Made by a program: the position numbers and the translations under genes
Part shown: positions 198 through 47,594 of the stretch, piece by piece
How the letters are laid out: every line of letters starts with the position of its first letter
Position numbering within the stretch: position 1 is the first letter of the stretch
The notes under the pieces: generated by a model
What the model saw: the letters and a program-made list of their open reading frames with translations, nothing else
What the model was told of the DNA's origin: nothing
Databases searched by the model: none
NCBI GenBank assembly: GCA_021778515.1
Contig: JAJYCJ010000007.1
Coordinates: 10,498-58,142, forward strand
Length of the DNA: 47,645 nucleotides
Source of the DNA: Acidobacteriota bacterium
GTDB taxonomy: Bacteria > Acidobacteriota > UBA4820 > DSQY01
Reading direction: 5' to 3'

Positions 198-319
198 GGG
201 AGGCCCTCCGTGGCCTCCCGCCGCCGATGCGGCACCCGGCCCCATGCTGGGCGGCGGCGGAAGAATGACGACCGACCACCGACCACGGACCACCGACGAT
301 GGACGACCCTCCCATTACC

Positions 320-442: not shown

Positions 443-673
443 GGGTTAGGCGAGGCCTTCGAAGCGGCGGGCGGGGGCGCCCGCGCCACGGGGGTGAAAA
501 CCGGGGGGATCGGCCGCGGGGATGCGGCCGCTACGAAAACGCATCGGCCAAGGATCGCGACGTAGGGGAGGCCCTCCGTGACCTCCCGCCGTCGATGCGG
601 CACCCGGCCCCATGCCGGGCGGCGACGGATGAATGACGACCGACGACCGACGGCGGACGACCCTCCCATTACC

Positions 674-834: not shown

Positions 835-1989
835 ATGGACGGTGAGGCGTGGCGGGGGCTGGTGGAGGCGGTGGAGCGGCCGGCTTCGATCCTGGAGGGG
901 CCGGCGGCCGGGGATGTGGAGGGGCTGGCGGAGGCCCTCTCGGCGAATGGCCTCTTCCCGCTGGCTTACCACGCCTGGCAGGCGGCGGGGGTACTGCCGA
1001 AACTGCCGGAGGATGAGCAGGCTCTGCTTCGGGATCGCTTCATCCGGTACCTTGCGGGCTGGATGACGGCGTGGGAGGAGACGGGGCGGATTCTCGACAT
1101 CTGGCTCGCGGCGGGGCTGACGCCCATCCTGCTTAAGGGGGCCGACCTGGCGGTGCGCTATTACGCCGAGCCGCACCTGCGCCCCATGTCGGACCTGGAC
1201 GTGCTCCTTACCTCGACGGCCGAGTGTGAACGGGCCTACGATCTGTTGACGCAAAAGGGCTTCCGGACGCACGAGAGCCTTCCGCAGGAAACCTGGGCCC
1301 TCCTCCAGCACCTGCCGGCGCTCTCGGCGCCGGTTACCGGCTGGGCAGTGGAGATTCACGGGGCGCTCCTCTTGTCGCCGAGAGACTCGCGGTGGACGGG
1401 CGGGGGGGTGAGGCTGATCGAGGAGCGCCGCACCTACGCGTGGCAGGGGCGCCGGGTGGAGGGGCTGGCACCGGAGGCCCTGGCAGCCTTCCTCTGCGGA
1501 CACATGTGGTTTCAGCACGCGGGCGACGTACCGAGGGCCATGGTCCTCTACGATCTCAAGGCGATTCTCGACAGGGAGGGGAGCGCCTTCCGCTGGCCGC
1601 TCCTTCTGGAACTGGCGGAGGCGGCGGGCGTGACGGGGGCCGTGGGGCGGGGCTTCGGTCTGCTGGACGCCTTGCTGGGCGTGGCTCCTCCTCCGGAGGT
1701 GAGGAAGGAGATCCAGGCCCGCGGTCGCGAGGCGGAACTCGCCCTCTCGCCGGGCGGGGCGGCCGTGGAACAGCTCGTGGGGCGCCTGCGCCACGAGGGG
1801 CTCGGGGCGGCGGTCAGGACCGCATGGCGGATCGCCTTTCCGCCCTTCGGCTACATGCGCTGGCGCTACCGGGACAGGCGGAAGTGGCCCGTGGCGGCTC
1901 TCTATCCCTACCGCTGGGCCGGACAGGCGGTGCGGATCGTGCGATGGGCGATGGAGCGCGCGCGGCTGGCCGTGGGGGGGAGGAGATAG
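835..1989 (+). CDS. Nucleotidyltransferase family protein (NTP_transf_5-like)
   Basis: The 384-residue protein carries the signature of the uncharacterised nucleotidyltransferase family PF14907 around residues 97-125: ILLKGADLAVRYY followed by LRPMSDLDVLL, where the Asp pair would be the metal-binding DxD. Family members are often found in exopolysaccharide and glycopeptide loci; substrates are unknown. The C-terminal third is basic and Tyr/Trp-rich. ATG 835 is the first start after the repeat block and has only a weak purine stretch (GGGACGAACGGG) before it. Codon bias matches the neighbouring export genes. It stands alone between two repeat blocks. Family assignment is fairly firm; the reaction is not known. 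Confidence 0.85.
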   Translation: MDGEAWRGLVEAVERPASILEGPAAGDVEGLAEALSANGLFPLAYHAWQAAGVLPKLPEDEQALLRDRFIRYLAGWMTAWEETGRILDIWLAAGLTPILLKGADLAVRYYAEPHLRPMSDLDVLLTSTAECERAYDLLTQKGFRTHESLPQETWALLQHLPALSAPVTGWAVEIHGALLLSPRDSRWTGGGVRLIEERRTYAWQGRRVEGLAPEALAAFLCGHMWFQHAGDVPRAMVLYDLKAILDREGSAFRWPLLLELAEAAGVTGAVGRGFGLLDALLGVAPPPEVRKEIQARGREAELALSPGGAAVEQLVGRLRHEGLGAAVRTAWRIAFPPFGYMRWRYRDRRKWPVAALYPYRWAGQAVRIVRWAMERARLAVGGRR

Positions 1990-2062
1990 GCCGACGGCGG
2001 ACGGCGGACGGCGGCGGAAGAATGACGACCGACGACGGCCGATGGACGACCCTCCCATTGCC

Positions 2063-3904: not shown

Positions 3905-3971
3905 AAAGGGGGGCGGCCGTCGTCGGCCGGTCTGAAACGCCCGCCGCGCGAGCCGGCGGCCTTGCCGCCTC

Positions 3972-4006
3972 GCGTTTCCCGTCTCATCTCTTGCGTCTCG
4001 CGTCTC
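3972..4006. repeat. Degenerate 7-bp tandem repeat
   Basis: Five units in strict 7-base register: GCGTTTC, CCGTCTC, ATCTCTT, GCGTCTC, GCGTCTC. It is one of about ten such heptamer tracts in gaps of this window. Confidence 0.6.
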
Positions 4007-5244: not shown

Positions 5245-5250
5245 TCGGCC

Positions 5251-5539
5251 GTAGGGGAGGGCCTCCGCGCCCTCCCGCGGTGGGAGTCGGGAGGCGGGCG
5301 GCCAGAGACGGCCGCCCGTACGGGGGAAGAGCCGTAGGGGAGGGCCTCCGCGCCCTCCCGCGGTGGGAGATGGGAACCGGGCGGCCAGGGACGGCCGCCC
5401 GTACGGTGGAAGAGCCGTAGGGGAGGGCCTCCGTGCCCTCCCGCGGTGGGAGATGGGAGGCGGGCGGCCAGGGACGGCCGCCCGTATGGGGGTAATGGTG
5501 GGGAATGGTAACCGGGCGGCCAGAGACGGCCGCCCGTAC
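5251..5539 (+). repeat. REP-like array upstream of the RAYT
   Basis: Three inverted hairpin pairs, each exactly 71 bp from GTAG to GTAY (5251-5321, 5334-5404, 5417-5487), are repeated at an exact 83-bp period. A lone right-type hairpin follows (5514-5539), 52 bp after the preceding right hairpin. Left hairpin: GTAG + GGGAGGGC-loop-GCCCTCCC. Right hairpin: GGGCGGCC-loop-GGCCGCCC + GTAC. All stems are 8 bp with 6-base loops. The array ends inside the 5' end of the RAYT reading frame. Confidence 0.85.
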
Positions 5540-6053
5540 GGGGGTGGCGGTGGAAAATGGGAGGGGGTCGGGAGGAGGAGCGCTGGATGGGGGAGCCGAT
5601 AGGCCCACAACGCGCAAACGGATTCGATTGCCTTCTGAGGTGTACCGAACGCCCGGCCTAGTGTGCTTTGTGACCATCTGCTGCCACGATATGCGCCCAC
5701 TGTTTAAGGAAGAGGCCTGCGCAAGAGCGGTGGAAGAAACGCTGCAAGGTCGGGCCTTCAAAAAAGGTTGTTCGCTCCTTGCCTATGCTTTGATGCCCGA
5801 CCACGTCCATCTTCTGCTCCAAAACGGAGGCGGCGATTTGGTGCGCGCCGTAGCCGAATGGAAGTCTTATACGACAAAGTTGCTGTGGCAATTTGGTCAC
5901 GAAGGGCAGATCTGGAAAAGGTCCTTCTACGATCACTTTCTGCGGGACGAGGAAAGCGTCTTTCAAACGGCATGCTACATCACCGAGAATCCCTTGCGAG
6001 CTGGTATTGAACACGATCACTGGCATGTATGGCACCGCTGGATGCGGCCGTAG
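5505..6053 (+). CDS. REP-associated tyrosine transposase (RAYT, Y1/IS200-like)
   Basis: The conserved part begins at RIRLPSEVYRTPG (about residue 35) and shows the family signatures: the HUH metal motif in MPDHVHLLL (about 101), WKRSFYDHF, and YITENPLRAGI carrying the catalytic tyrosine. RAYTs are single-copy, domesticated relatives of IS200/IS605 transposases that nick REP hairpins next to GTAG. The track start ATG 5505 lies in the upstream repeat. A strong GGAGGAGGAG site (5571-5580) is followed in frame only by CTG 5583, so the true start is uncertain (5544, 5550 or 5583 are options). The stop TAG is the foot of the next repeat (CGGCCGTAGGGG). Both active-site motifs are intact. Confidence 0.9.
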   Translation: MVTGRPETAARTGVAVENGRGSGGGALDGGADRPTTRKRIRLPSEVYRTPGLVCFVTICCHDMRPLFKEEACARAVEETLQGRAFKKGCSLLAYALMPDHVHLLLQNGGGDLVRAVAEWKSYTTKLLWQFGHEGQIWKRSFYDHFLRDEESVFQTACYITENPLRAGIEHDHWHVWHRWMRP

Positions 6054-6223
6054 GGGAGGGCCTCCGCGCCCTCCCGCGGTGGGGAATGGGAGGCGGGCGG
6101 CCAGGGACGGCCGCCCGTACGGGGGTAATGGCGGGGAATGGGAACCGGGCGGCCAGAGACGGCCGCTCGTACGGGGGAATAGCGGGGAATGGGAACCGGG
6201 CGGCCAGGGACGGCCGCCGGTAT
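6050..6223 (+). repeat. REP-like array downstream of the RAYT
   Basis: One 71-bp inverted hairpin pair (6050-6120) is followed by two right-type hairpins (6147-6172 and 6198-6223) at 52- and 51-bp spacing. The sequence matches the upstream array apart from scattered substitutions; the third copy has GGTAT in place of CGTAC. GTAG 6050-6053 contains the RAYT stop codon. With the upstream array it brackets the transposase gene. Confidence 0.85.
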
Positions 6224-6256
6224 GGGGTATACTTTAGGTTTTAGGAAGGGGCATGC

Positions 6257-8392: not shown

Positions 8393-8628
8393 GCCGCGGG
8401 CAGCCCAATCGGCGATGTGGCGGCCGACTCCCACCGGCCAACCGGGCGGAACGGGGCGCCGGACGTAGGGGAGGGCCTCCGCGCCCTCCCGCGGTGGGAG
8501 ATGGGGGCAGGGCGGCCAGAGACGGCCGCCCGTACGGGGGAAATAGCGGGGAATGGGAAAGGGGGCGGCCAGGGACGGCCGCCCGTACGGGGGTAGCGGC
8601 CCATTCCCATCGGCCCGTGGCGCTCACC
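8393..8628. repeat. Repeat-filled gap with REP-like pair and extra hairpin
   Basis: A 71-bp hairpin pair (8465-8535) and one right-type hairpin (8563-8588, 53 bp on) have the same structure as the RAYT-flanking arrays. A GGCGGCCG...CCGGCC imperfect hairpin lies near 8417-8440. No gene is seen. Confidence 0.8.
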
Positions 8629-9243: not shown

Positions 9244-9554
9244 GCGAGGCGCGAGGCGCGAGGCGCGAGGCGCGATGGATTCCCTATCGTGGCGGCCGGC
9301 TCCCGCCGGCCGCTCGGTGGAAATGGAAAGAATCGGCCGCGGGGACTGCGGCGGGTGCGAGAATGCGCCGGCCAGCGAACGCGGCGTAGGGGAAGCCCTC
9401 CGTGGCCTCCCGCCGCCGATGCGGCACCCAGTGCGACGACGGGCGGCCAGGGACGGCCGCCCCTACGGGCGCTACGAAGGCCTACCCTAGCGGTTCTCCT
9501 TTCGCTGCCGTCTGCCGTCTGCCGTCTCCTTTTGTCGGTCATTGGTCATTGCCA
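9244..9554. repeat. Repeat block: heptamers, hairpin, heptamers
   Basis: No gene is seen. Four perfect GCGAGGC units lie at 9244-9271. A GCGGCCGG-CTCCCG-CCGGCCGC hairpin (9292-9313) has the same 8-bp stem and 6-base loop as the REP hairpins. A GTAG...CTAC pair lies at 9386-9466. A second heptamer run at 9506-9554 has three TGCCGTC units, then TCCTTTT, GTCGGTC, ATTGGTC, ATTGCCA, all in 7-base register. Confidence 0.75.
9386..9466 (+). repeat. REP-like inverted hairpin pair (GTAG...CTAC), 81 bp
   Basis: This is the same long subtype as 2303-2382 and 29125-29205, with the GATGCGGCACCC-type linker between the two hairpins and a perfect CTAC at the right foot. Confidence 0.75.
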
Positions 9555-19137: not shown

Positions 19138-19259
19138 GTCATTGCGAGGGCTCCTCGCAAAGGGCAGCCAGCGAAGCAATCCCGGCCCTGCATGACCGGC
19201 CCTAAGCCGGTGGTTTTCCATCCATGGGGCTGCCGCGGCCCTTCGGGCCTCGCAGTGAC
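19138..19259 (-). mobile_element. MITE-like element, copy 4 (inverted)
   Basis: Begins GTCATTGCGAGG and ends CCTCGCAGTGAC, so it is the reverse orientation of copies 1-3, 122 bp long. It lies directly behind the GT39-like gene. The remaining gap to 19495 has a heptamer tract (19303-19330: CTCCTCA, CTCCTCA, CTGCCCA, CTGTCCT) and otherwise no recognisable feature. Confidence 0.75.
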
Positions 19260-19302
19260 GGTAACGGGAGAGTCGTCCGCCATCCGCCGCGATGGGCTTT
19301 TG

Positions 19303-19330
19303 CTCCTCACTCCTCACTGCCCACTGTCCT
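19303..19330. repeat. Degenerate 7-bp tandem repeat
   Basis: Four units in 7-base register (CTCCTCA twice, CTGCCCA, CTGTCCT). The same motif and register occur at 29852-29879, in both places a short distance after an inverted TIR element (about 45 and 370 bases). Confidence 0.6.
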
Positions 19331-23517: not shown

Positions 23518-25713
23518 GTGGTGAGCGTTCCCCAACGGTGGCGCAGAATTCCCCGCGAGGGGTGGATGGCCCTTTCACTGGTCGCGATGACCGCGGCGGC
23601 CTACTTCTACGTGGTCCACTGCGGCTTCGTCAATTATGACGACCCGGCTTATGTGACCGCTAACCCGGTGGTCCAGGCGGGGCTGACCTGGAGGGGGTTC
23701 CTTTACGCCTTCACCCACACGCCGTTATACCTCTATACACCGCTCACGCTCCTCTCCCACATGCTGGATTGCCAGCTCTTCGGGATGAACCCCGGCGGCG
23801 CCCACGCTATGAGCCTGCTCTACCACCTCATCAGCACACTTCTGCTCTTTTGGGCCCTCACCAAGATGACGAAGGAGCCCTGGCCGAGCTGGGCGGTGGC
23901 GGCCCTCTTTGGCCTCCACCCCATGCACGTGGAGGCCGTGGCCTGGATCGCCGAGCGCAAGGAGGTGCTCTCCACGCTCTTCGGCCTGCTGGCGCTTCTG
24001 GCGTACGCCTACTACGTCGAGAGCCGGAGCAGGCGAGCCTACTGGACGATTTTCGTCTGCCTCCTCCTGAGCCTGCTCGCCAAGCCCATGCTCGTGACCC
24101 TGCCCTTTCTTCTCCTGCTGCTGGACCTCTGGCCGCTGGGGCGGTTGGACCCCTTCGAGCCGTGGCCGCCCCGTGAAGAGGGCAAGGTCCCGCCGTGGCC
24201 CTATCGGCTGAAGCCAGGTTGGCTGCGCCAGATCTGGCCCCTCGTTCGCGAAAAGATCCCCCTCTTTCTGCTGGTCTTCGGCTTCAGCGTGGGGACCTAC
24301 CTGACCAATGCGCTCGGCGGATCTTTGCCGAGCACGAGGGCCTTTCCCATCGGCCTGCGCCTGGAGACGGTTCTTTACGCCTACGGGCAATACATCGCCA
24401 AGCTCTTCTTTCCCGTGGGGCTCAGCTTTTTCTACCCCGTCACACTTCTCGGCCTGACGGTGGTAAGCGTCCTCCCGCCGCTCCTCTTGCTGATGGCCGT
24501 CACCCTGCTCGCTCTGCGCCTGGCGCAGAGGGCTCCGTTCCTGCTCGTGGGCTGGCTGTGGTTCCTCGGTACGCTGGTGCCCGTCATCGGCCTCATCCGC
24601 GTGGGCTCCCCGCAGGCCTATGCCGATCGCTACACCTACTTCACCTACACGGGGCTCTTCGTCATTCTCGTCTGGACCGTCTACCGATGGGTGAAAGGGA
24701 GGGGGCTGGGAACCCGCATCGCCCTCTATCTGTTCTGCGGCTTGCTTCTCACCCTGGGGCTCCAGACGGCCTTTCAGGTCACGGTCTGGAGGGACAGCGA
24801 ATCGCTCTTCACCCATTCGCTCGAGGTAGCTCCCAAGGGCAATTACGTGGCCATGGGCGGGCTGGGCATGGTCTATTACGACAAGTACAAGAACATCGAG
24901 GGGGCCAAGACCCTGCTCAAGAAGGCCATTTCCCTGGGCCCCGTCTACCCCAATTGGTACAACCTGGGTGGCATCCTCGTGCGGGAGGGGGAATTCAAGG
25001 AGGGCGAGGCCTGCCTGCGCCAGGCCCTGGCCGCGAGCCAATGGAAGGATCAGAAGGCGAACGCGCTCTCCGCCCTGGCCTACGCCTGCGTGAGGCAGGC
25101 CCAGTACGCGCAAGCCCTGGAGTTCTCCAGGCGCGCCCTGACCCTCGCACCCGGCCAGGAGAGTGCCATCGAGAGCGAGGCCGAGGCTTTGCTGGGGCTC
25201 GGCCGGTGCCGCGAGGCGGAGCAGGTGGCCCGGGCCGGTCTGGCCGAACATTCCAAGAGCAGCGGGATCGCCGTCCGCTTGGCGGTGGCCCTCCTCGGGC
25301 AGGGGCAAGCCCAGGAGGGGGCGCCCTACATGGAGCGGGCACTAAAGATGCGCCGCGGCAACCCCGCGCTCTTCTTCGAGGCGGCTACCGATCTGCTCCT
25401 GATCCCTCACCCCGCCCCTGTCGTCCGCCAGGAGGCGCTCAGCATGGCCCTGCGGGCGGTCCGGGCTGCGCACGGCGGTCAGCCCTGGTACCTGCTCGTC
25501 TATGGCCAGGCGCTGGCGGCCAACGGGCAGAAGCTAGAGGCTCAACAGGTGCTGGAAGACTGCCTCGCCAAGGCCAAGGCGAAGGATATCAAGGGGCTGG
25601 AGCGGATGGCCCGGCGGGCGCTGGACGGCCTGGCCTCCACTGGGGCCGTGGTGCCGGCTGAGGCGGTGATGAGTGGAGAGGCCAGAGGTGAGACGCCAAG
25701 CGCTAGACGCTAG
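23518..25713 (+). CDS. TMTC-like GT-C membrane protein with TPRs, paralogue 4
   Basis: The 731-residue protein, the longest of the four, has VNYDDPAYVTANP, LTLLSHMLDCQLFG, HPMHVEAVAWIAERKEVLS and YADRYTYFTY, then six or so TPR-like units (about 440-700). The usual GGHHLTN is altered to GGAHAMS. Starts at GTG 23518 or 23521 after GGGAGGGG. The last codons and the stop lie in a 7-bp repeat run (AGACGCC, AAGCGCT, AGACGCT, AGACTCC; 25691-25718), so the C-terminus may have been remodelled by repeat expansion. It ends the plus-strand run of transferases before a bidirectional terminator. Confidence 0.85.
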   Translation: MVSVPQRWRRIPREGWMALSLVAMTAAAYFYVVHCGFVNYDDPAYVTANPVVQAGLTWRGFLYAFTHTPLYLYTPLTLLSHMLDCQLFGMNPGGAHAMSLLYHLISTLLLFWALTKMTKEPWPSWAVAALFGLHPMHVEAVAWIAERKEVLSTLFGLLALLAYAYYVESRSRRAYWTIFVCLLLSLLAKPMLVTLPFLLLLLDLWPLGRLDPFEPWPPREEGKVPPWPYRLKPGWLRQIWPLVREKIPLFLLVFGFSVGTYLTNALGGSLPSTRAFPIGLRLETVLYAYGQYIAKLFFPVGLSFFYPVTLLGLTVVSVLPPLLLLMAVTLLALRLAQRAPFLLVGWLWFLGTLVPVIGLIRVGSPQAYADRYTYFTYTGLFVILVWTVYRWVKGRGLGTRIALYLFCGLLLTLGLQTAFQVTVWRDSESLFTHSLEVAPKGNYVAMGGLGMVYYDKYKNIEGAKTLLKKAISLGPVYPNWYNLGGILVREGEFKEGEACLRQALAASQWKDQKANALSALAYACVRQAQYAQALEFSRRALTLAPGQESAIESEAEALLGLGRCREAEQVARAGLAEHSKSSGIAVRLAVALLGQGQAQEGAPYMERALKMRRGNPALFFEAATDLLLIPHPAPVVRQEALSMALRAVRAAHGGQPWYLLVYGQALAANGQKLEAQQVLEDCLAKAKAKDIKGLERMARRALDGLASTGAVVPAEAVMSGEARGETPSARR

Positions 25714-25718
25714 ACTCC
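25691..25718. repeat. 7-bp tandem repeat at the 3' end of a gene
   Basis: AGACGCC, AAGCGCT, AGACGCT, AGACTCC in 7-base register. The run includes the TAG stop of the TMTC-like paralogue 4. Confidence 0.5.
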
Positions 25719-29851: not shown

Positions 29852-29879
29852 CTCCTCATTCCTCACTCCTCACTGCCTT
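29852..29879. repeat. Degenerate 7-bp tandem repeat
   Basis: CTCCTCA, TTCCTCA, CTCCTCA, CTGCCTT in 7-base register, almost the same tract as 19303-19330. Confidence 0.6.
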
Positions 29880-45804: not shown

Positions 45805-47423
45805 GTCGTCCAGTGCGTAAAAAGACCGCGATCATCATCGGTGCGGGGCCGGCGGGGTTGACGGCGGCGTGGGAGCTGCTGGACCGCACCGAGGTTCAGC
45901 CCATCGTGCTAGAGGCCACGGGGGAGATCGGCGGCATCGCGCGGACGGTGGTCCACAAGGGCAACCGGATGGACATCGGCGGCCACCGCTTCTTTTCGAA
46001 GTCGGACCGTGTGATGGAGTGGTGGCAGAACGTCCTGCCCATGCAGGGGGCGCCGTCGCGGGACGACCGGCTCCTGCGCCGGGAGATCCCCCTGGCGAAG
46101 GAGGCCAGGACGCGCGCGCTCCGAGGCGAAGCGATGTCGCGGCCCGCCCCCGACCCCGAACGCGAGAACCTCGTCATGCTGGTGCGCCAGCGCCTCTCGC
46201 GGATCCTCTTCCTCCGCCGCTTCTTCAGCTACCCCATCACCCTCAGCCTGGACACGCTGCGCAAGCTCGGCCCCGTTCGGCTGGTTCGTATCGGCTTCAG
46301 CTACCTGCGGGCTTCGCTCTTCCCCATACGCGAGGAGCGCTCCCTGGAGGACTTCTTCGTCAACCGCTTCGGCCGGGAGCTCTACAACACCTTCTTTCGC
46401 GATTACACCGAAAAGGTGTGGGGCGTGCCCTGCTCCGTCATCAAGCCCGAGTGGGGCGCCCAGCGAGTGAAGGGGCTCTCGGTGTGGAGCGCCGTCCTCC
46501 ACGCGCTGGGCAAGCCCTTCCGGAGCCGCGGCGGCATCGCCCAGAAAGGAACGGAGACGAGCCTCATCGAGCGCTTCCTCTACCCCAAGCTCGGGCCGGG
46601 ACAGATATGGGAGACGGTGGCCGCCCAGGTGGCGGCGGCGGGCGGCGAGGTGCGGCTGAACCAGAAGGTGGTCGGTGTCCGGTGGTCGCCCGGACGTATC
46701 GAGGCGGTGGTCACGGAGAACGGGGTCACGGGAGAGCGGCACGAGATGTCGGGTGACCTCTTCTTCTGCACCATGGCCATCAAGGACTTGGTGGCGGCCA
46801 TGGGGGGCACCGTGCCGGCGGAAGCGGCCGAGGTGGCGGCGGGCCTGGTCTACCGCGACTTCGTCACCGTGGGGGTACTGCTGCGCAAGCTGAAGATCAA
46901 GAACGAGAGCCGGATTCCCACGGTGAACGGCATCATCCCCGACAACTGGATCTACATCCAGGAGCCCGAAGTGAAGATCGGCCGCCTCCAGCTCTTCAAC
47001 AACTGGAGCCCCTACCTGGTGGCGGACCCTTCCACCGTCTGGATGGGCGTAGAGTACTTCTGCAACGAGGGGGACGATTTCTGGGGAATGACGGACGAGG
47101 CCATCGGGGAGCTGGCCGTGAGGGAACTGGCCGCCATCGGCGTAATCGAGGCCGAGGAGGTGCTGGACAAGGTGGTCGTCCGCCAGCCCAAGACCTACCC
47201 GGCCTACTTCGGCACTTACGACCGCTTCCACGTTGTGCGGAGCTTCCTGGACGGGATCGAGAACCTCTACCCCATCGGCCGCAACGGCATGCACAAGTAC
47301 AACAACCAAGACCACTCCATGCTCTGCGCCATGACCGCCGTGGACAACATCCTCGCCGGGATCACCTCCAAGGAGAACCTCTGGGCCGTCAACACCGAGC
47401 AGGAGTACCACGAGGAGAAATGA
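45801..47423 (+). CDS. FAD-dependent oxidoreductase (amine-oxidase / UDP-galactopyranose-mutase-like fold)
   Basis: About 540 residues. The N-terminal dinucleotide motif [15 protein letters not shown] is followed by [13 protein letters not shown] and [11 protein letters not shown], matching NAD(P)/FAD oxidoreductases common in polysaccharide loci, more distantly related to Glf and protoporphyrinogen oxidase. The C-terminal [18 protein letters not shown] is the usual FAD-contact end of this subgroup. ATG 45801 overlaps the GtrA stop (ATGA), with GGAAGGTGA ten bases upstream; the track start 45693 is an overlap artefact. Substrate not known; sugar ring-form isomerisation or oxidation is a guess. 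It is the last gene in the window. Confidence 0.88.
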
Positions 47424-47447
47424 TGAGAGATGAAAGATGAGAGATGA
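47422..47447. repeat. Degenerate 7-bp tandem repeat after the last gene
   Basis: GATGAGA, GATGAAA, GATGAGA, GATGA in 7-base register, starting inside the TGA stop of the oxidoreductase gene. Confidence 0.6.
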
Positions 47448-47448
47448 T

Positions 47449-47594
47449 CCCAAATCCCGCGATTGGATATTGGAGCGGCTCCGAAAGGCTCATGGATGGT
47501 AGTTTCCGTGGACGGCGATCTTCACCCGCCAAGGGATTTGGGTTGCCTCCGACCCCGGACTTGATCCGGGGGAGGAAGCCCCAAGGGTGGGGTG
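47449..47594. repeat. Downstream structured region, no gene
   Basis: CCCAAATCCC (47449-47458) and GGGATTTGGG (47533-47542) form a perfect 10-bp inverted repeat 74 bases apart. Shortly after, CCCCGGA-CTTGA-TCCGGGG is a short hairpin. No U-tract and no ORF; it may be a non-coding element or repeat remnant. Confidence 0.4.

Follow-up and report, generated by a model that had tools for sequence, protein, structure and literature searches.

Intergenic 7-bp tandem arrays in an Acidobacteriota genome as candidate relics of an element class that carries GxxExxY nuclease genes

The genomic window analysed here, a 47.6-kb stretch forming one end of a 58-kb contig from an Acidobacteriota bacterium (genome of 3.34 Mb in 176 contigs), contains short intergenic tandem arrays that differ in sequence and share a period of 7 bp. 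What produces a common period without a common sequence? The initial annotation had listed ten such tracts and described their register as strictly 7-base. Tandem Repeats Finder, combined with a run statistic of our own, placed 7-bp tracts at or near nine of the ten sites, and the intergenic and gene-end tracts are thus real; the one at 25691–25718 is weak (Table 1). Eight tracts in the gaps of the window had period 7, and all other periods together accounted for two minimal tracts only. The description had missed the one-sidedness of the arrays, which are purine-rich (R) by the upstream gene and pyrimidine-rich (Y) by the downstream gene, as well as their 8-bp relatives, which form inverted arms around a nuclease gene.

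Table 1. Tandem 7-bp arrays of the window (R side, by the upstream gene; Y side, by the downstream gene)
Unit	Composition (purine fraction)	Position	Strand	Setting
GACGACC/GACCACC	mixed purine content	267..308	.	adjoins the CATTGCGAGG...GTGACGGTAATGGGAG palindromic repeat
GACGACC/GACGGCG		635..662	+	second copy of the 267..308 setting, beside the palindromic repeat
GACGGCG	purine-rich (0.73)	1989..2014	+	R side, 4 bp past gene end (for the array at 1993)
CTCGCGT/CTCATCT	pyrimidine-rich (0.21)	3969..4006	-	tract heading the entry of the initial annotation; Y side, next start 84 bp on
CGCGAGG	purine-rich (0.72)	9244..9275	+	R side, 91 bp past gene end
CTGCCGT and GGTCATT	pyrimidine-rich (0.30)	9505..9551 (9505–9527, 9537–9551)	-	Y side, gap shared with the 9244 array; next start 103 bp on
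CTCCTCA	pyrimidine-rich	19303..19326	-	midway in gap
CGCTAGA		25691..25718	+	at gene end; 25701–25715 weak alone because of its location and only 2.1 copies
CTCCTCA	pyrimidine-rich (0.14)	29852..29879 (called 29852–29874)	-	ORF start 31 bp on
GATGAAA/GATGAGA	purine-rich	47417..47447	+	overlaps stop codon; 1 bp past gene end (for the array at 47424); continues into repeat CCCAAATCCCGCGATTGGA

Two other repeats accompany the arrays. A palindromic repeat of about 150 bp (CATTGCGAGG...CCTCGCAGTGACGGTAAYGGGAG) occupies positions 310–800, 2040–2190, and 19140–19290 of the window, and GACGACC/GTCGTCC heptamers adjoin each copy. The repeat CCCAAATCCCGCGATTGGA...GGCTCCGAAAGGC adjoins array elements or is contained in them at positions 47448–47520 of the window and at two further loci, L352 of this genome (1110–1180) and L075 (near 1065).

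The survey was extended to 1.16 Mb of this genome (G000; 35% of the total, 67% GC) and 0.72 Mb of a sister species of the same genus (G001), with genes called by our own ORF and codon-score caller. The 167 kb of intergenic DNA in G000 contained 31 tandem tracts of period 7, 39 of period 8, and four of period 9; each of the other primitive periods up to 13 was represented by 0–2 tracts. Since the tracts make up a small share of intergenic DNA, its global autocorrelation rose only slightly at 7, and run statistics were therefore used. After removal of three N runs, exact runs of at least 12 matches numbered 17 for period 7 and 20 for period 8, and 0–3 for the others, except for multiples such as 14 and 16. 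The corresponding intergenic tracts in G001 were 19 (period 7), 10 (period 8), and 0–2 (others). The absence of a 7-bp excess had been named in advance as grounds for dropping the claim; the excess is present, and what does not hold is 7 as the sole period, given that period 8 is equally common genome-wide. A chance origin of the arrays was rejected, since order-3 Markov controls yielded nearly no tandem tracts. A coding origin was rejected as well: coding DNA, six times larger than the intergenic portion, held only a handful of exact runs. As separate observations, G000 intergenic DNA also contains 17 tandem tracts of period 29, none of which occurs in the sampled part of G001, and a (GGAGTGA) array of more than 30 copies in G001 (L111, 19762–20000) reaches the end of the fetched stretch.

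The repeat units are diverse yet related, and are purine-rich on one strand. At least 15 heptamers (AAAAGTG, AGGAGTG, ACGCGAG, and ACGGCGG among them) and 18 octamers (including AGATGAGG, AGGTGATG, AAGACACC, and AGCGATTG) were identified in the third of the genome that was read. GGG is missing from most units, and units may drift in register inside a single tract (L068, 10206–10308). This diversity led us to reject a single spreading sequence. A purine-rich first half and a pyrimidine-rich second half were found in 37 of the 41 array-bearing gaps regardless of gene direction, with 15/18 for gaps containing only 7-bp arrays and 16/16 for those containing only 8-bp arrays; gaps without arrays did not display this trend. 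Like that of a hairpin, this order does not change with the strand on which it is read. The 8-bp arrays were complementary to their inner flank (18.4 inside vs 13.2 outside), and the 7-bp arrays had no complementarity to their surroundings (11.5 vs 11.6). Heptamers and octamers pair within single gaps at L002, L030, L041, L077, and L075.

G000 and G001 (94% median protein identity) were compared at 139 orthologous gaps. Seven of these carried an array in at least one of the two species, and one array gap was common to both. In the remaining array gaps, whole purine-loop-pyrimidine units were present or absent, eroded by substitution, or altered in copy number, as for CTTGGTGT, with five copies in one species and about two in the other.

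The search for G000 octamers led to a gene of the GxxExxY family (TIGR04256/PF13366; PD-(D/E)XK nuclease family), which is located directly behind the purine arm at several loci. The gene is absent from the window; the genome carries one, at L030 (6029–6382). The 8-bp pattern (CRVVRAGR three times) was present in 16 of the 40 genomes in the sample of relatives. A stricter form, used for a wider contig search, was found in contigs named Chloroflexota, Planctomycetota, Verrucomicrobiota, Cyanobacteriota, Pseudomonadota, Bacteroidota, Spirochaetota, Acidobacteriota, and more. All 12 plus/minus pairs of octamer arrays less than 250 bp apart were purine-first. With gene coordinates taken from HMM matches in many phyla, inverted arms of matched 7–10-bp repeats were detected at 49 of the 56 GxxExxY loci at a score of at least 28 (46 at 30 or higher); only 2.3% of 437 control genes had arm scores of at least 30. 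The purine arm was upstream of the gene in 42 loci. Arm spacing mixes 7, 8, 9, and 10 bp, and a purely 7-bp arm beside GxxExxY has not been seen so far.

The association of the gene with the arrays was also evident at the genome level. GxxExxY was present in 36 of 40 genomes chosen solely for an octamer array, vs 5 of 24 array-negative relatives. Across 39 relatives, 11 genomes had both, 4 arrays only, 5 GxxExxY only, and 19 neither (Fisher p = 0.002), so that the exceptions amounted to 4/15 array-bearing genomes without the gene and 5/16 gene-bearing genomes without an array. Of 149 genomes from the phylum as a whole, 54 encoded GxxExxY. The family was also found in eight plasmid records and was not found in phage genomes. 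The arms occur in several sequence dialects, namely CACAGAG, CGCAAAG, CACGGAA, CGCAGATTA, CACGAAGGA, and GGGAGGAC. Hand-labelled into three classes and placed on the protein tree, they required 9 changes, whereas 500 shuffles gave a mean of 18.5 and never fewer than 13; the sequence of the arms thus goes with the clade of the nuclease. Two GxxExxY units of one genome (G016, L260 and L276) have a common outer end, GTAACTACTCAGGT, located beyond the 8-bp arms; in L260, ACCTGAGTAGTCAC is its match. Also, annotation of these genes calls for caution, as a purine arm in frame with the gene can falsely extend its N-terminus; spurious N-termini such as NHRGTEAQRK were observed at L030 (6029–6661), L162, and L215, and RKGAKAQRK is another example.

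Two fixed gene junctions illustrate how the units vary. Between nuoE and nuoF, G000 contains a 498-bp unit with a GxxExxY gene. The sister species G001 has the same ends at this site, the gene being deleted between short AGG homologies to leave a 104-bp hairpin. Species G002 and G005 possess hairpins with CGCAAAG/CGCCAAG arms and 7-mer AATTCGC arms, respectively, and the site is empty in G004. The flanks revealed no clean target duplication, and neither target-site duplication nor precise excision was demonstrated for the GxxExxY unit. Between leuC and leuD, arms of several dialects were detected in seven species, with the nuclease gene in four of them. In G000 (L352), CACGGAGAA arms surround another repeat, the same CCCAAATCCCGCGATTGGA that follows the window's 47417–47447 tract. 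The protein tree leaves most leuC–leuD copies unresolved and does not separate rewriting in place from repeated insertion.

Loss of the middle part was also observed in genome G141, where 27 insertion-sequence copies carry the unit. Both arms are kept in 27/27 copies, and the ORF is cut to at least eight different lengths; no copy without the unit was found among those with both flanks placeable. Together with the internal deletion in G001, these ORF-deleted copies indicate that losing the middle part can give rise to solo hairpins and orphan arrays. In genome G036 (L302–L321), the arms of the solo hairpins are nearly identical (three times CGCCAAG or CGCAGAG); the loops are AT-rich and unrelated, and the borders TTAA-like. 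The common arms and unlike loops are not explained by simple copying, and the arms seem to be rewritten or selected while the loops drift. The initial annotation had taken the common period and varied sequence to mean that the tracts have a generating process in common and are not copies of a single sequence that spreads; the many units, their single purine-first polarity, and the differing arms at the same junctions between species bear this out.

The GxxExxY protein of G000 scored 152.9 bits with TIGR04256 (cut-off 35) and 147.3 bits with PF13366 (cut-off 22). The PD-(D/E)XK residues are well conserved among the 57 sequences compared: E24 in 57, D64 in 55, E74 in 56, and K76 in 57. The predicted structure (pLDDT 96) gave Cas4 SSO0001 (4ic1; probability 0.99) and the catalytic domain of the homing endonuclease I-Bth0305I (3r3p; 0.89) as the nearest folds in Foldseek, with E-values of only about 1e-3 and 0.08. 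Thus, a likeness to homing endonucleases and Cas4-like PD-(D/E)XK nucleases is suggested by the model; the GxxExxY gene differs in being free-standing between genes and in having repeat arms. A PDB sequence search produced no match, and PADLOC assigned no family to the G000 protein and gave weak RT-PDDEXK and Cas4 matches for its relatives. To our knowledge, this widespread family has no known function. No link of GxxExxY to repeats was found in the open-access literature, where two papers mention the family, a reverse-transcriptase survey that only names it and one on an algal virus; one further paper names PF13366.

Several known systems share some of these features. Heptanucleotide STRR/LSSR repeats, reported from Calothrix, Xanthomonas, and others with units such as GGGNATC (PMC4692102) and TAACTGA (PMC4679880), are likewise intergenic tandem 7-mers at many loci, and occur beyond chance, as do the arrays described here. 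They differ in having one dominant unit per genome, read as G-quadruplex-forming or regulatory; the G000 arrays have no such dominant unit, consist mostly of units without the G-quadruplex-capable GGG, and combine many units with an equally common period 8, inverted arms, and a linked nuclease gene. The Xanthomonas and Nostoc heptamers lie close to whichever gene is 5' of them when the G-rich strand is read (PMC4692102), and this placement is the same purine-first polarity as found here, although PMC4692102 does not read it so. In the cyanobacterial genomes tested, eight of nine Nostoc-type GGGGAYT arrays had purine-first placement, as did all four close pairs read off listed coordinates, and a 7-mer locus of Nostocales has within it CTCATCTCC octamers that resemble those of G000. 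REP/REPIN sequences with their RAYT (TnpA_REP) gene are the nearest working analogue: they also comprise scattered short intergenic hairpins and a single small nuclease-type gene among the repeats. The RAYT system relies on a Y1 HUH enzyme and 20–40-bp palindromes, whereas the repeat-linked protein here is PF13366 and the arms consist of 7–10-bp tandem repeats. The window does contain a Y1_Tnp (RAYT-like) gene (5505–6050), which sits in other repeats, namely tandem 83- and 52-bp REP-like repeats (GTAGGGGAGGGCCTCCGCGCCCTCCCGCGG, GGCGGCCAGGGACGGCCGCCCGTACGG) at 5248–6227 and 8462–8600. MITEs and internally deleted insertion sequences resemble the GxxExxY unit, as distinct from the window tracts, in the retention of inverted ends, the loss of the coding middle, and a parent copy in the same lineage. 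The GxxExxY unit differs from them in lacking a DDE transposase, a demonstrated target duplication, and loops conserved between copies, and in having arms of short tandem repeats that vary between species at one site.

Plain slippage is a serious rival for the window's heptamers, though on the whole a somewhat unlikely one. It supposes that replication errors tandem-copy any sequence in non-coding DNA, with a 7–8-bp optimum set by polymerase contact length and no element involved. Among long simple repeats, heptamers ranked first in abundance in most genomes, and polymerase contact was put forward as their origin (Mrazek 2007, as told in PMC4679880 and PMC4692102); the variable unit sequences and the differing copy number of CTTGGTGT fit this explanation. 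Slippage predicts neither the purine-first polarity (37/41) nor units common to several phyla, paired arms, a nuclease gene between them, or dialects that follow nuclease clades, and both polarity and gene association recur in independent genomes. Slippage alone accounts for the periods and not for the polarity; it may act inside the arms. It is unlikely, too, that the 7-bp arrays are a separate repeat class whose resemblance to the 8-bp GxxExxY arms ends with composition and polarity. Their lack of complementarity and the lack so far of a purely 7-bp arm beside GxxExxY speak for such a class. Against it stand the pairing of 7- and 8-mers in single gaps, the 7-mer hairpin at the nuoE–nuoF site of G005, the octamers within the Nostocales 7-mer locus, and the mixed spacing of GxxExxY arms.

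Pyrimidine RNA:purine DNA hybrids are weak, and the purine-first order would therefore suit termination of transcription. If the arrays were selected as 3'-end RNA structures, acting as two-way terminators or mRNA stabilisers, their location at gene ends, their slightly lower frequency between divergent genes, and the single long hairpin that some array gaps form on folding (z as low as -5.4) would be accounted for. This explanation is nonetheless very unlikely. RNA folding of array gaps gave a mean z of only -1.1 vs -0.6 in other gaps, a modest gain; the compensatory signal in one G000/G001 hairpin was mixed, with more broken pairs (13) than changed-but-kept pairs (10); the presence of arrays varies between sister species; and the nuclease gene is left unexplained.

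We consider it somewhat more probable than not that the 7-bp tracts are members of one class of intergenic elements, composed of a purine-rich arm of degenerate 7–10-bp tandem repeats, a middle part, and a pyrimidine-rich repeat arm. In complete members, the middle holds a GxxExxY PD-(D/E)XK nuclease gene some 120 codons long. Loss of this gene would have left most copies as solo hairpins or, after more decay, as single R or Y arrays such as those in the window. The modest folding of array gaps, the lack of a demonstrated target duplication or excision, the unlike loops in G036, and the genomes with arrays or GxxExxY alone count against this view. With moderate confidence, the window's heptamers may be taken as decayed or unmatched arms of this class; this is the weakest step, because the 7-bp arrays lack complementarity and the window lacks a GxxExxY gene. 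By analogy with the action of RAYT on REPs, the nuclease might act together with repair or replication functions of the host to recognise the arms, perhaps in the form of a cruciform or of a single-strand hairpin, and spread or maintain the unit. Mobility driven by GxxExxY is our inference. The short repeats would arise, and be rewritten, through slippage and arm-to-arm templating.

The seemingly random stutter between genes is probably what remains of a mini-element, undescribed yet very widespread, the arms of which frame GxxExxY in most bacterial phyla sampled. More tentatively, GxxExxY proteins could be the enzymes of pan-bacterial mini-elements with nuclease-specific tandem-repeat ends, and most bacterial intergenic heptamer and octamer arrays, cyanobacterial STRRs included, could be their arms or relics; we give this wider proposal a little less than even weight. 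The over-representation of intergenic heptamers in bacteria was documented by 2007 at the latest, and no cause for it has gained acceptance. Tying it to GxxExxY would give the nuclease a predicted substrate and the repeat class a candidate enzyme.
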